The position numbers and the translations under genes are program-made. From Methanocaldococcus sp. FS406-22 (lineage in GTDB: Archaea > AGJL01 > Methanococci > Methanococcales > Methanocaldococcaceae), in contig NC_013887.1 of assembly GCF_000025525.1 (NCBI RefSeq), forward strand, positions 568,729-632,728: a DNA stretch of 64,000 nucleotides, read 5' to 3'. This document shows positions 19,238 to 58,401 of this stretch, piece by piece. The notes beneath the pieces were generated by a model. The model was not told the origin of the DNA. It saw only the letters and a program-made list of their open reading frames with translations, and did not search any database. Positions within the stretch are counted from its first letter, which is position 1. Every line of letters starts with the position of its first letter.

Positions 19238-22159
19238 TTATTTTTCTTTTTCATTTGATTTTAGTTTTTCAGTGTATTTACATTTTGGATAGTTAGAGCA
19301 ACCAACAAACTTTCCAAATTTTCCATCTCTAACAACTAAATCTCCTCCACATTTAGGGCATTTTCCTACAACCTCTTTTTTATTTATTGGTTCTGTGTAT
19401 TTACACTTTGGATAATTTGAACAACCATAAAATGCTCCATAAATCCCCTTCTTTAAAACCAGCTTAGCTCCACACTTAGGGCAGATTCTGTCATCTTCTT
19501 TAACCTCTACTTGCTTTAAAGGACATTCTGGATTAATACAAACCTCTCTATCTCCAATTTTTAAAATAGGGGATTTGCATGCTTCACAAACTTTATTTGG
19601 GATTTTTATTCTTCCTTTATCTGGAAGAGAATACTTTACATCACATTCAGGATAGTTAGAGCAACCAACAAACCTGCCCTTTTTATGCCTTATTAAAATT
19701 AAGTCTCCTCCACACTTTGGACATTTCCCAACAATTTTTGCTTTTTTATTTGTAGCATCTAAGTTTTTAATAAGATAAATTCCAATATCTTCCTCTTTCT
19801 TTTTAAACTCTTCTAATATTTTTCTCAATCTTTTCTCAGCTTCTTCTAAAACATCATCTTTTTTAATTTTTCTAAACTGTATCTTTTCTAACTTTTCTTC
19901 TAAATCTCTTGTCATCTTTTCATCAATAATCTCTGGGCAGAACTTTTTTAATGTCTCAATTACTGAAATCCCTAAATCAGTTACTTTTAAAGAGCCGTCG
20001 TCAATAACATAGCCTCTTTTTATTAGTTTATCTACAATCTCTGCTCTTGTTGCCTTTGTTCCTAACCCTTTCTTTTCTAATTCTTTTATAATACTTGCAA
20101 CAGTATATCTTTTTGGTGGCTGTGTTTCTTTTCTTGTTATTGTTATCTTTTCAACTTTGATTATATCATTTTTCTTTAATGCTGGCAATTCAATCTCATC
20201 AAATTTTGGGAAGTAATATATCTCATGCCAACCCTCTTTTACTGTCCTTGAACCAGATAACTTAAATTTCTCTCCTTTGATATCAACTTTTACATTTAAA
20301 TATTCTCTCTCTGCATTATCCCAAAAAGCGGCTAAAGTTCTTCTTGCTATTAAATCATAAATTTTCTTTTCTTTCTCTGAAAGTTCTTCTTTTGGAATAT
20401 CTACAATATGTATTGCAGGATGTGCAGGGTCTTCTTTCTTCCCTTCAACTGGCTTTAAATTCTCTTTTAAAATTCTCTCAGCCCATTTTCCATAAACTGG
20501 ATGATTTTTTATTATATTTAGGATATCTTCCAAATACTTTCTATCTTTTGGAAGTTTTTGGCTGGATGTTCTCGGATATGAACAGTTATGCACAACTATA
20601 CCATTTGCTATAAAGTTGTGGTAATCTTTGACAGTTAAATCATAAACCTCTCCTTCATATTCAATTTCTTCAATTTTTTTGATTTTTTGAATATAAACAT
20701 CTCCGTTAGCAATTCTTTTTAAATCTCTGTCTATGATATAATTAGATAACTTTCTTAATCTATCTAAACTTAAACCTTTATTTTTTGATAATTGGTTAGA
20801 TAGGTCAAATTTCTTTGCAATTCCAGATTTAAACTTATTTTTCCAATCTGAAGTGCAGATAATGCTATAATGATGAGAATATTTTTTATTTTCTAATATA
20901 AAATCAATAAATTTAGTTTTTTTAATTTTAAATGTCTTTTCTGAATTATTTATAAACATTACTACTTGCTCATTTTCTTTTAATTTTTCAGCCGGTATAA
21001 ATATTAACTCATCCCTATAAACTAAAATTGGATGCTCCTTTGTAGTGATAAGTTCAGTTCCATCATTTAAAGTAATTTTTATCAATTTTTCTTTTATAGT
21101 TCTTTTTAAAAGTTTATATTTTGATTTTGTCAGTTTTAAGTCTTTATTTAGGCATAAAACCTCTCCTTCATCGTCTAAGTCTTTAATCTTTTTAATTCCA
21201 TCTGGCAATAATATCAACGTATCTGGATGTAGGCAAAGCCCTTTCTCATACAAACTTTGGGCAATTTCTTGCGTTTCCTTTGGAGATATTTTAAAATAAC
21301 TGTAAGCCTCTCTCTGTAAAGTTCCTAAGTCAAAAGGTGGGAGAGGTTTTATCTTCCTTTTAGTTTTCTTTATTTCAACAACCTTACCAAATTTTTCATT
21401 CTTTATTTTTTCATAAACACTTTTTGCCTCTTTTTCATCCCAAAACTTCTCTTTCTCATGTATGGCTTTTAAATTATCTTTAAATAGAGCTTCAATAACC
21501 CAATATGGTTTAGGAACGAATTTTTTAATTTCTAACTCTCTTTCAGTTAAAAAAGCTAATGCAGGGCCTTGAACTCTACCAATACTCATTGTTTTCCATC
21601 TATTCACTGCCCTTATGGCATTCATTAAAGCTCTCGATAGGTTTATTCCAAAATACCAATCTACAATATGCCTACTCTCTCCAGCATCAACTAAGCCATA
21701 ATCAATTTCATCTGGATTTTCAAAAGCTTTAACTATCTCTTTTTTTGTTAAGGATGAGAATCTCATTCTCTTTGCTTTTTCTTTTCCGCAACAATATTTT
21801 AATGCATGATAACCAATTAACTCCCCTTCAATATCCCAATCTGTGGCTATATAAAATTCATCTGCCTCTTTTGAGAGCTTTTTTAATGCCTTTATGTATT
21901 TATTAACATATTCTTTTCCCTTTTCAACACTTGCAGGCACCCATTTTATATCAAAAACTGGATATGAGCCAAATTCTTTATTTTCCTTTTCAACTAAGGT
22001 AAATAGATGCCCAACAGCACTTGCCACTATAATCTTTTTTCCATTTCTTTCTAATTCATAGTATGGGACTCCATCAATGCTCTTTTTCTTTGCTTTACCT
22101 AAAGCATTTGCTATCTTTTTGGCAACACTCGGCTTTTCACAGATTATTAACGCTGTCAT
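19238..22159 (-). CDS. topA: DNA topoisomerase I (type IA) with an in-frame mini-intein
   Basis: Relaxes negatively supercoiled DNA through a 5'-phosphotyrosyl link. The TOPRIM motif IICEKPSVAKK is at the N-terminus and the D-x-D-x-E acids are in ATDWDIEGE. The catalytic tyrosine is in CSYPRTSSQ. Four C4 zinc ribbons (CPKCGG...CSNYPEC type; the second reads CEAC...CINPEC) fill the C-terminus. An intein of 217 residues (20585-21235) sits two residues before the catalytic Tyr; without it the protein is 756 residues, the usual size. I choose ATG 22159 (MTALIICEK) as the start; the 12 residues encoded upstream do not look like topoisomerase. Activity requires protein splicing. Confidence 0.93.
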   Translation of the reverse strand: MTALIICEKPSVAKKIANALGKAKKKSIDGVPYYELERNGKKIIVASAVGHLFTLVEKENKEFGSYPVFDIKWVPASVEKGKEYVNKYIKALKKLSKEADEFYIATDWDIEGELIGYHALKYCCGKEKAKRMRFSSLTKKEIVKAFENPDEIDYGLVDAGESRHIVDWYFGINLSRALMNAIRAVNRWKTMSIGRVQGPALAFLTERELEIKKFVPKPYWVIEALFKDNLKAIHEKEKFWDEKEAKSVYEKIKNEKFGKVVEIKKTKRKIKPLPPFDLGTLQREAYSYFKISPKETQEIAQSLYEKGLCLHPDTLILLPDGIKKIKDLDDEGEVLCLNKDLKLTKSKYKLLKRTIKEKLIKITLNDGTELITTKEHPILVYRDELIFIPAEKLKENEQVVMFINNSEKTFKIKKTKFIDFILENKKYSHHYSIICTSDWKNKFKSGIAKKFDLSNQLSKNKGLSLDRLRKLSNYIIDRDLKRIANGDVYIQKIKKIEEIEYEGEVYDLTVKDYHNFIANGIVVHNCSYPRTSSQKLPKDRKYLEDILNIIKNHPVYGKWAERILKENLKPVEGKKEDPAHPAIHIVDIPKEELSEKEKKIYDLIARRTLAAFWDNAEREYLNVKVDIKGEKFKLSGSRTVKEGWHEIYYFPKFDEIELPALKKNDIIKVEKITITRKETQPPKRYTVASIIKELEKKGLGTKATRAEIVDKLIKRGYVIDDGSLKVTDLGISVIETLKKFCPEIIDEKMTRDLEEKLEKIQFRKIKKDDVLEEAEKRLRKILEEFKKKEEDIGIYLIKNLDATNKKAKIVGKCPKCGGDLILIRHKKGRFVGCSNYPECDVKYSLPDKGRIKIPNKVCEACKSPILKIGDREVCINPECPLKQVEVKEDDRICPKCGAKLVLKKGIYGAFYGCSNYPKCKYTEPINKKEVVGKCPKCGGDLVVRDGKFGKFVGCSNYPKCKYTEKLKSNEKEK
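20585..21235 (-). mobile_element. TopA mini-intein (217 residues, no homing endonuclease domain seen)
   Basis: The left junction is EKGL/CLHPDTLILLPDG and the right junction is GIVVHN/CSYPRT, so the intein begins with Cys, ends with His-Asn and is followed by Cys: all the residues for class 1 splicing. Block B is TTKEHPILV with its histidine. The C-terminal blocks read VYDLTVKDYHNFIANG then VVHN. The middle (about intein residues 95-185) contains no LAGLIDADG motif, so it is either a mini-intein or has lost its endonuclease. It sits in the conserved active-site region of the host protein, as most inteins do. Confidence 0.92.
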
Positions 22160-22406: not shown

Positions 22407-23098
22407 ATGACCAAAATTTCTGTTGTATTGCCTACTTATAACGAAAGGGATAATTTACCCATAGTTGTCAAAGAAATAGATGAGAATTTGAGAAATTATG
22501 ATTATGAGATAATAGTTGTTGATGATAATTCTCCTGACAGAACATGGGAAGTTGCCTTAGAGTTGAGTAAAACTTATCCCATTAAATTAATAAGAAGATA
22601 TGGAAAACTGGGTTTGGCCAGTGCCATATTAATGGGCTTTTATAATGCCGAAGGAGACATTTAATCTGCATGGATGCTGATTGCCAGCATGATTCATCTG
22701 TTTTAAGCAAAATGATTGAAGAAATTGAAAATGGGTATGATATAGTTATTGGCAGCAGGTACAATGGGAAAGTTGATGACGGCTGGGGAGTTAGGAGGGA
22801 TATTATATCTAAAGGAGCTACTTTTTTAGCGAGGCCTTTAACTAATGTTAGAGATTGCATGAGTGGATACTTTGCAATAAAAAAGGATGTTATTGAGGGA
22901 ATTAAAAAATGGAGCTTAATAGGATACAAAATTTTACTGGAAATTTTAGTGAAAAGTGGGGATTTAAAAGTTAAAGAAATTCCTATTAGATTTGGAGTTA
23001 GGAAGCATGGAAAAACGAAGTTAAACCATAAAGAGATTGTTAATTATTTACATTTAGTTTTTAAGCTGTATTTATGGAAATTGAGTGTGAAAGAATGA
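22407..23098 (+). pseudogene. Dolichyl-phosphate mannose synthase-like GT2 glycosyltransferase, one-base frameshift
   Basis: A GT2 family enzyme that would move a sugar from a nucleotide sugar to polyprenyl phosphate. The N-terminal piece has VVLPTYNERDNLPIVV and VVDDNSPDRT, the donor-binding motifs of DPM1. It stops at TAA 22662 inside AEGDI. The rest continues one frame over as ICMDADCQHD and runs to 23098 with the family's RPLTNVRDCMSGYFAI and a GKTKLNHKEI box. One extra T in the run at 22660-22662 restores GDILICMDADCQHD. The ribosome site GGAGGGG precedes ATG 22407. The sequence is otherwise uneroded, so the break is recent or a sequencing error. It is the first gene of the glycan cluster. 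Confidence 0.85.
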
Positions 23099-55806: not shown

Positions 55807-58401
55807 ATGGACAAACCATGGGTAGAGAAGTATAGACCAAAAACATTAGATGATATTGTAGGACAGGATGAAATAGTAAAGAGATTAAAGAAATACGTTG
55901 AAAAAAAGAGTATGCCGCATTTATTATTCAGTGGGCCTCCGGGAGTTGGAAAGTGCTTAACAGGAGATACAAAGGTTATTATAAATGGAGAGATTAGAGA
56001 GATTGGAGAAGTTGTTGAAGAAATAAGCAATGGAAAGTTTGGAGCAACTTTAGTCAATAATATAAAAGTTTTAGGAATTGATGAATATGGAAAAGTTAGA
56101 GAGTTTGATGTGCAGTATGTTTATAAAGACAAAACCAATACCTTAATAAAAATAAAAACTAAAATGGGTAGAGAGTTAAAGGTAACTACCTATCATCCTC
56201 TATTAATAAACAACAAAAATGGAGAAATAAAATGGGAGAAAGCAGAAAATTTAAAGGTTGGAGATAAGTTAGCAACACCAAGATACATATTATTTGAAGA
56301 AACCGAATATAATGAAGAATTAGCAGAGTGGCTTGGATATTTCATAGGAGATGGACATGCAGATAGTAAATATAATAAAATAACTTTCACAAACAGTGAT
56401 GAAAAACTTAGAAGAAGATTTGCTGAACTTACTGAAAAGTTGTTTAAAGATGCAAAAATAAAAGAAAGAATCCATAAAGATAGAACGCCAGATATTTATG
56501 TTAATTCGAAAGAGGCTATAGAATTTATTGATAAACTTGGTTTAAGAGGAAAGAAGGCAGATAAAGTTAGAATTCCAAAAGAAATAATGGGAAGCAATGC
56601 ATTGAAATCATTCTTAAGAGCATACTTCGATTGTGATGGTGGAGTTGAGAAACATTCAGTAGTTCTATCAACTGCAAGTAAAGAGATGGCAGAGGATTTA
56701 GTTTATGCCCTATCAAGGTTTGGGATAATTGCAAAATTAAGGGAAAAAGTAAATAAAAACAATAATAAAACGTATTATCATATAGTCATATCAAACTCTT
56801 CAAACTTAAAGGCATTCTTGGATAACATTGGATTTAGCCAAGAAAGAAAACTTGAAAAGTTATTAGAAATCATAAAAGACGAAAATCCAAACTTAGATGT
56901 TGTAACTATTGACAAAGAGAAAATAAGATATATAAGAGATAGATTAAAGGTCAAATTAACAAGGGATATTGAAAAAGACAATTGGAGCTACAATAAATGT
57001 AAGAAAATTGCATGGGAAGTTTTAAAAGAAATACATTGTAGATTGGAAGAGCTAAAAGAAATTGAAACAGCATTAGAAGGCAGTATATTAATTGATTGGA
57101 ATGAAGTTACAGAAAGAAGAAAAGAAATTGCAGAAAAAACTGGAATAAGAAGTGATAGGATTTTAGAATACATAAAAGGTAAAAGAAAACCAAGTTTAAA
57201 GAACTATATAAAAATCGCCAATGCTCTTGGCAAAAATATTGAAAAAACAATTGATGCAATGAGAATCTTTGCTAAAAAGTATTCAAGCTATGCAGAAATT
57301 GGAAAAATGCTTAATATGTGGAACTCAAGTGTAAGAATTTATTTAGAAACCAATACACAAGAGATTGAAAAACTTGAAGAAATTAGAAAGGTTGAACTTA
57401 AACTTGTAAGAGATATTCTTAATGATGAAAAACTAATGGATAGCATTAACTATGTGTTATTCTTAGCTTCAAATGAAATCTATTGGGATGAAATTGTTGA
57501 AATTGAACAATTGAATGGAGACTTTATAATTTATGACTTGCATGTTCCAAAATACCATAACTTCATTGGTGGCAATCTACCAACTGTATTGCATAATACA
57601 ACCGCTGCTTTGTGTTTAGCAAGAGATTTATTTGGAGAAAACTGGAGAGACAACTTTTTAGAGCTTAACGCGTCAGATGAAAGAGGTATAGATGTTATTA
57701 GGACAAAAGTAAAAGATTTTGCAAGAACTAAGCCAATTGGAGACGTGCCGTTTAAGATTATATTCTTAGATGAAAGTGATGCATTAACTGCAGATGCACA
57801 GAACGCTTTAAGAAGAACAATGGAGAAATATTCAGATGTTTGTAGATTTATCTTGAGTTGCAATTATCCAAGCCGTATTATCCCTCCAATTCAATCAAGA
57901 TGTGCTGTCTTTAGGTTTTCACCATTAAAGAAAGAAGATATTGCTAAAAAGCTAAAAGAGATTGCTGAGAAAGAGGGATTGAATTTAACTGAAAGTGGTT
58001 TAGAGGCTATAATTTATGTCTCTGAAGGAGATATGAGAAAGGCAATAAATGTTTTACAAACAGCAGCAGCTTTAAGTGATGTTATAGATGATGAGATTGT
58101 TTATAAGGTTTCATCAAGAGCAAGACCAGAAGAAGTTAAGAAGATGATGCAATTGGCTTTAGATGGAAAGTTTATAGAGGCAAGGGATTTATTGTATAAG
58201 CTTATGGTTGAGTGGGGAATGAGTGGGGAGGATATATTAAACCAGATGTTTAGGGAAATAAATAGCTTAGATATTGATGAGAGGAAGAAAGTTGAGTTGG
58301 CAGATGCTATTGGTGAAACTGACTTTAGAATAGTTGAAGGGGCTAACGAACGAATTCAATTAAGTGCTTTATTGGCTAAAATGGCGTTAATGGGAAAATA
58401 A
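55807..58401 (+). CDS. rfcS: Replication factor C small subunit with an intein
   Basis: Subunit of the clamp loader that places PCNA on DNA. The host protein (316 residues after splicing) is an AAA+ ATPase: N-terminal WVEKYRPKTLDDIVGQ, Walker A GPPGVGK/TTAA split by the intein, Walker B IIFLDESDALT (DE-S-D variant), arginine-finger box SCNYPSRIIPPIQSRC and the collar domain. Splicing is essential because the intein sits between Lys and Thr of Walker A. M. jannaschii RfcS has three inteins; only one is present here. The gene ends 15 bases inside the convergent P-type ATPase gene. Confidence 0.95.
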   Translation: MDKPWVEKYRPKTLDDIVGQDEIVKRLKKYVEKKSMPHLLFSGPPGVGKCLTGDTKVIINGEIREIGEVVEEISNGKFGATLVNNIKVLGIDEYGKVREFDVQYVYKDKTNTLIKIKTKMGRELKVTTYHPLLINNKNGEIKWEKAENLKVGDKLATPRYILFEETEYNEELAEWLGYFIGDGHADSKYNKITFTNSDEKLRRRFAELTEKLFKDAKIKERIHKDRTPDIYVNSKEAIEFIDKLGLRGKKADKVRIPKEIMGSNALKSFLRAYFDCDGGVEKHSVVLSTASKEMAEDLVYALSRFGIIAKLREKVNKNNNKTYYHIVISNSSNLKAFLDNIGFSQERKLEKLLEIIKDENPNLDVVTIDKEKIRYIRDRLKVKLTRDIEKDNWSYNKCKKIAWEVLKEIHCRLEELKEIETALEGSILIDWNEVTERRKEIAEKTGIRSDRILEYIKGKRKPSLKNYIKIANALGKNIEKTIDAMRIFAKKYSSYAEIGKMLNMWNSSVRIYLETNTQEIEKLEEIRKVELKLVRDILNDEKLMDSINYVLFLASNEIYWDEIVEIEQLNGDFIIYDLHVPKYHNFIGGNLPTVLHNTTAALCLARDLFGENWRDNFLELNASDERGIDVIRTKVKDFARTKPIGDVPFKIIFLDESDALTADAQNALRRTMEKYSDVCRFILSCNYPSRIIPPIQSRCAVFRFSPLKKEDIAKKLKEIAEKEGLNLTESGLEAIIYVSEGDMRKAINVLQTAAALSDVIDDEIVYKVSSRARPEEVKKMMQLALDGKFIEARDLLYKLMVEWGMSGEDILNQMFREINSLDIDERKKVELADAIGETDFRIVEGANERIQLSALLAKMALMGK
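55954..57597 (+). mobile_element. RfcS intein with LAGLIDADG homing endonuclease (548 residues)
   Basis: The left junction is GVGK/CLTGDTKVI, and the right is LPTVLHN/TTAAL, so it starts with Cys, ends His-Asn and is followed by Thr. Block B is TTYHPLLIN. The two endonuclease motifs are LGYFIGDGHAD and LRAYFDCDGGVE, each with its aspartate, so the enzyme may still be active. A helical insert (about residues 330-490) between the endonuclease and the C-terminal splicing block may be a DNA-recognition or HTH region (KIANALGKNIEKTIDAM). Confidence 0.95.

Follow-up and report, generated by a model that had tools for sequence, protein, structure and literature searches.

The topA gene in the window, the whole 64,000-nucleotide stretch of Methanocaldococcus sp. 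FS406-22 DNA analysed here, is interrupted by an element that is very probably a mini-intein able to splice but not to move by itself, derived by deletion of the nuclease from a LAGLIDADG homing intein of the same TopA site. The precursor (TIGR01057, 1040 bits) is broken at residues 321-537 by an in-frame insert with the splicing blocks and nucleophiles of an intein. The insert matches PF14890 Intein_splicing (E=4e-30), TIGR01445 (E=2e-11) and TIGR01443 (E=3e-11), all beyond the curated cut-offs. As an earlier note on this DNA had stated, it is 217 residues long, every splicing residue is present (Cys1, the TxxH motif TKEH, His216-Asn217 and, in the extein, the +1 Cys538), and it lies two residues before the active-site tyrosine, Tyr540 of CSYPRTS, which we take to be catalytic from family knowledge of the type IA motif. 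The spliced protein computed from the sequence has 756 residues from the conserved internal Met13, which is likely the real start, and 768 from the first ATG; the former is the length that had been proposed.

An AlphaFold prediction made with six sequences gave a pLDDT of about 90 for the Hint core and values below 50 for residues 100-164. In a Foldseek search of the PDB the best folds were the solved mini-inteins PhoCDC21-1, Ssp DnaB and PhoRadA, so that by the prediction and these matches the core has the Hint fold. Neither the whole intein nor its middle region matched any nuclease family among the Pfam and NCBIfam profiles, and on the same grounds we rejected the idea that the spacer conceals an endonuclease domain. 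The positions of the parts are collected in the table.

Features of the topA gene and its intein (positions in the window)
Feature	Position	Strand	Remark
topA, DNA topoisomerase I (type IA) precursor with intein, 985 aa	19238..22195	-	TIGR01057
N-extein: Toprim and first part of topoisomerase domain	21236..22159	-	likely start Met13 at 22159
TopA site-a mini-intein, 217 aa	20585..21235	-	profile matches
Cys1, first nucleophile	21233..21235	-	
Block B TKEH (TxxH), intein residues 65-68	21032..21043	-	
Spacer, intein residues 93-175, read as homing-endonuclease-region remnant	20711..20959	-	profile; full-length columns about 94-118 and 408-468
Deletion junction, intein residues 116-118 (N-K-K)	20882..20890	-	about 289 residues of the thermococcal allele missing
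Blocks F and G, YEGEVYDLTVKDYHNFIANGIVVHN, ending in His216-Asn217	20585..20659	-	
+1 Cys538, extein nucleophile	20582..20584	-	Cys in 28/28 occupied alleles
Catalytic Tyr540 (CSYPRTS)	20576..20578	-	role from type IA family motif
C-extein with three Zn_ribbon_Top1 motifs	19241..20584	-	
Second TopA intein site (site b, GLGTK^ATRAE), empty in the window	20053..20054	-	

The origin of the element is indicated by comparison with inteins at the same insertion point, site a, in the family of genome G040, read as Thermococcaceae. There the intein is likewise placed between EKGY and CSYPRTSSQK, shares 57-63% identity with the core of the window copy and contains the same leftover segment; it differs in being exactly 511 aa long in 16 of the 18 copies and in bearing LAGLIDADG motifs in most. 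The one copy that was scanned (G142) matches PF14528 LAGLIDADG_3, and its motifs, at 212-224 and at 305-317, both fall inside the stretch that the window intein lacks; two LAGLIDADG motifs, the mark of a homing intein, are found in the thermococcal allele and not in the window copy, and the statement that none is left in the latter holds. When the window intein was compared with a profile built from all 18 thermococcal copies, it aligned to columns 1-118 with 139.7 bits and to columns 408-511 with 135.2 bits, and to nothing in between, so that it is an intein of the thermococcal type from which a single internal stretch of about 289 residues has been deleted. Taken by itself, the spacer (residues 93-172) scored 54 bits on this profile, the best of 2000 shuffled sequences reaching 9.8. 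By these matches about 80 spacer residues are left over from the homing-endonuclease region. The description of the element as endonuclease-free is therefore right as to the nuclease domain and not as to sequence from the nuclease region.

The allele is common, and the rarity implied by the earlier note is not supported. A search of TopA proteins found site a occupied in 7 of the 14 genomes of the genus (G001, G003, G005, G006, G009, G010 and the window's own, G000), in 10 of the 36 Methanococcales genomes examined, including three of Methanothermococcus (G026, G030, G031), and in 18 of 94 Thermococcaceae genomes, one of which is presumably T. kodakarensis KOD1. An isolated TopA intein without relatives is ruled out by these carriers, and the window intein shares both insertion point and common ancestry with the other site-a copies. 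Among 198 sampled genomes of 131 genera, no further lineage had a site-a intein at E<=1e-20, one reverse gyrase match aside. Scanning of genome contigs with Methanococcales-specific patterns gave matches in Methanococcales only, and a scan of viral contigs for carriers gave only weak Hint matches, the top one with 26% identity over its length. No paper naming the TopA site-a intein was found in the literature searched.

Site-a copies of different length form a stepwise series at one TopA site in two archaeal lineages, running from 511 aa through partly decayed Thermococcaceae copies of 467 aa (G206) and 367 aa (G203) to Methanococcales mini-inteins of 217, 184, 157, 150 and 136 aa. Of all the Methanococcales copies, the 217-aa form carried by G000 and G001 has retained the largest part of the nuclease region. 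The mini-inteins of 136-184 aa in Methanocaldococcus and Methanothermococcus represent the same allele at the same site, also without a nuclease, but with larger deletions: columns 1-102 and 437-511 are kept in the 184-aa form, 1-98 and 457-511 in the 157-aa form, 1-100 and 462-511 in the 150-aa form, and 1-95 and 470-511 in the 136-aa form of G005, G006 and G009. Save for a few columns, these deletions are nested one inside another. Both decayed thermococcal copies lack columns around 410-463, and their LAGLIDADG motifs are altered. It is conceivable, though we doubt it, that the order of decay differs by lineage, the nuclease core going first in Methanococcales, which would have kept the C-terminal nuclease-region segment longest (in the 217-aa form), and that segment going first in G206 and G203; the retained segments might then keep DNA binding or support splicing. 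Decay such as the series records is predicted by the homing cycle (PMC1654191). The series permits a direct test of that model and of how long a spacer is required in a hyperthermophile intein, and the 136-aa forms are candidates for small, heat-stable splicing tools.

We propose the following history. A LAGLIDADG homing intein would have occupied site a, as it does in Thermococcaceae and presumably once did in Methanococcales. A single internal deletion, spanning roughly columns 119-407 of the 511, would then have taken the nuclease core and left the Hint splicing domain together with, as relicts, a linker and a C-terminal segment of the nuclease region. Because no full-length site-a allele was found in the 36 Methanococcales genomes, we infer the nuclease-bearing ancestor in that order from the Thermococcaceae alleles and the leftovers. 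Self-excision by the standard Cys1/Asn217/+1 Cys route would restore TopA beside its catalytic tyrosine, and the present copy, having no nuclease, should be unable to home by itself. Since the spacer holds a nuclease-region remnant, the element is likely to have spread by homing at an earlier time, although the window copy no longer has the nuclease that homing by itself would require.

The intein would persist because TopA is destroyed whenever it is lost imprecisely, and only precise replacement with an empty allele can remove it. Such alleles, lacking exactly the insert, do exist. Site a is empty in 7 of the 14 genomes of the genus, including G002 and G004; the distribution is therefore patchy rather than fixed, contrary to what had been claimed. 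G004, which we take to be M. jannaschii, reads ALISYPRTS at the empty site, in agreement with the earlier note, which knew of no intein in TopA of that species.

Within the genus, intein and extein have mostly diverged to similar degrees (96/97%, 84/83% and 87/84% identity, respectively), except that G003 is closer in the intein (80%) than in the extein (70%). Between G000 and the thermococcal copies the identity of the intein core (58-63%) slightly exceeds that of the extein (52-54%); transfer from one order to the other would fit this but is not proved by it. As to the route taken, as distinct from the nature of the element, it is possible, if somewhat doubtful, that the intein did not descend from an ancestor of the genus and instead homed into the G000/G001 lineage after the genus had diversified, bringing a short co-converted flank. 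The site reads GLCSY with a TCA serine codon in G000 and G001 and ALISY with an AGY serine in the nearest empty relatives, so that GGG CTT / TGT TCA would have replaced a sequence of the type GCT CTA / ATT AGC, and the sequence just downstream in G000 and G001 equals that of G004 base for base. Against this, intein and extein have for the most part diverged in step inside the genus, and a single loss in the empty sister lineages would fit as well: a tree uniting the empty alleles was not rejected by the AU test (p-AU 0.48). The flank difference thus admits either reading. Recent gene conversion around the site was rejected, as sliding identity revealed no long tract and the difference is confined to about 10 bp on either side. 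TopA of G012 is empty at site a, yet its flank, GLCSYPRTS with serine encoded by TCA, is of the intein type; it is a candidate either for precise loss or for an ancestral site that was never invaded.

Comparison of G000 with G001 gave dN/dS values of 0.059 for the Hint core, 0.052 for the extein and 0.42 for the spacer, the last based on 9 substitutions; core and spacer differed in substitution counts by Fisher's test at p=0.035, with small numbers. Purifying selection thus acts strongly on the splicing core, as it does on the host enzyme, and selection on the spacer looks relaxed. From this selection and from the intact splicing residues we infer self-splicing, and the element is a genuine and probably active mini-intein. 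The +1 residue is Cys in every occupied allele; of the 35 empty alleles read, 16 have Cys there and the others I, V, T, S or Q, which suggests that the intein, rather than the enzyme, demands it.

Instead of being an idle residue, the spacer could be required for splicing or folding. There is a precedent in the M. jannaschii TFIIB intein, which is reported to depend on either the nuclease domain or a long linker (PMC6801210). In addition, G000 and G001 have spacers of equal length, and a 103-aa query that contains the spacer is 94% identical between them. We nonetheless consider this unlikely, given the close homologues of 136 aa that occupy the same site without a spacer, the higher dN/dS of the spacer than of the core and the low confidence of its predicted structure. 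It is very improbable that conditional splicing, in response to temperature or redox state for example, regulates TopA and that the intein is kept by selection for this: a role as environmental sensors has been suggested for inteins located at active sites (PMC8229266) and this one adjoins the catalytic tyrosine, but half of the genus lives without it, such a position is already expected from homing into conserved sites, and no regulatory element was seen.

A homologous intein of 494 aa, of the M. jannaschii type, is found at the equivalent position (GL/intein/CTYHRTSS) of reverse gyrase, a paralogous type IA topoisomerase; it is far diverged from the window intein and keeps LAGLIDADG-like motifs. 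It was rejected as the direct parent, since its flank-free scores were 48 and 43 bits and site-b inteins scored up to 74 bits. Reverse gyrase inteins lie beside that enzyme's own catalytic tyrosine in G004 and G034 (494 aa each) and in G007 (313 aa); reverse gyrase of the window's genome is empty (G000:C1:502000-506800).

Site b of TopA is occupied in G001, G007, G012, G013, G026 and G035, G001 and G026 carrying inteins at both sites. The site-b copies are mini-inteins of 155-169 aa in Methanocaldococcus and LAGLIDADG-bearing inteins of 535-554 aa in G026 and G035; the latter genome, which we take to be M. igneus, has no intein at site a. A topA intein has been catalogued in Halobacteria, with Methanotorris igneus as a relative (PMC4071816). 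It resembles the window intein in being a topA intein and most likely differs from it in site, being at b (GLGTK/intein/STRAE).

Two other loci in the window are of interest. At 55807-58401 (+) the replication factor C small subunit contains a large LAGLIDADG-containing intein in its P-loop (GVGK/CLTGDT...LHN/TTAALC). The gene for a dolichol-phosphate-mannose-synthase-like glycosyltransferase at 22407-23098 (+) is broken near 22664-22670 into two ORFs that lie in different frames, and is probably a frameshifted pseudogene or the result of a sequencing error.
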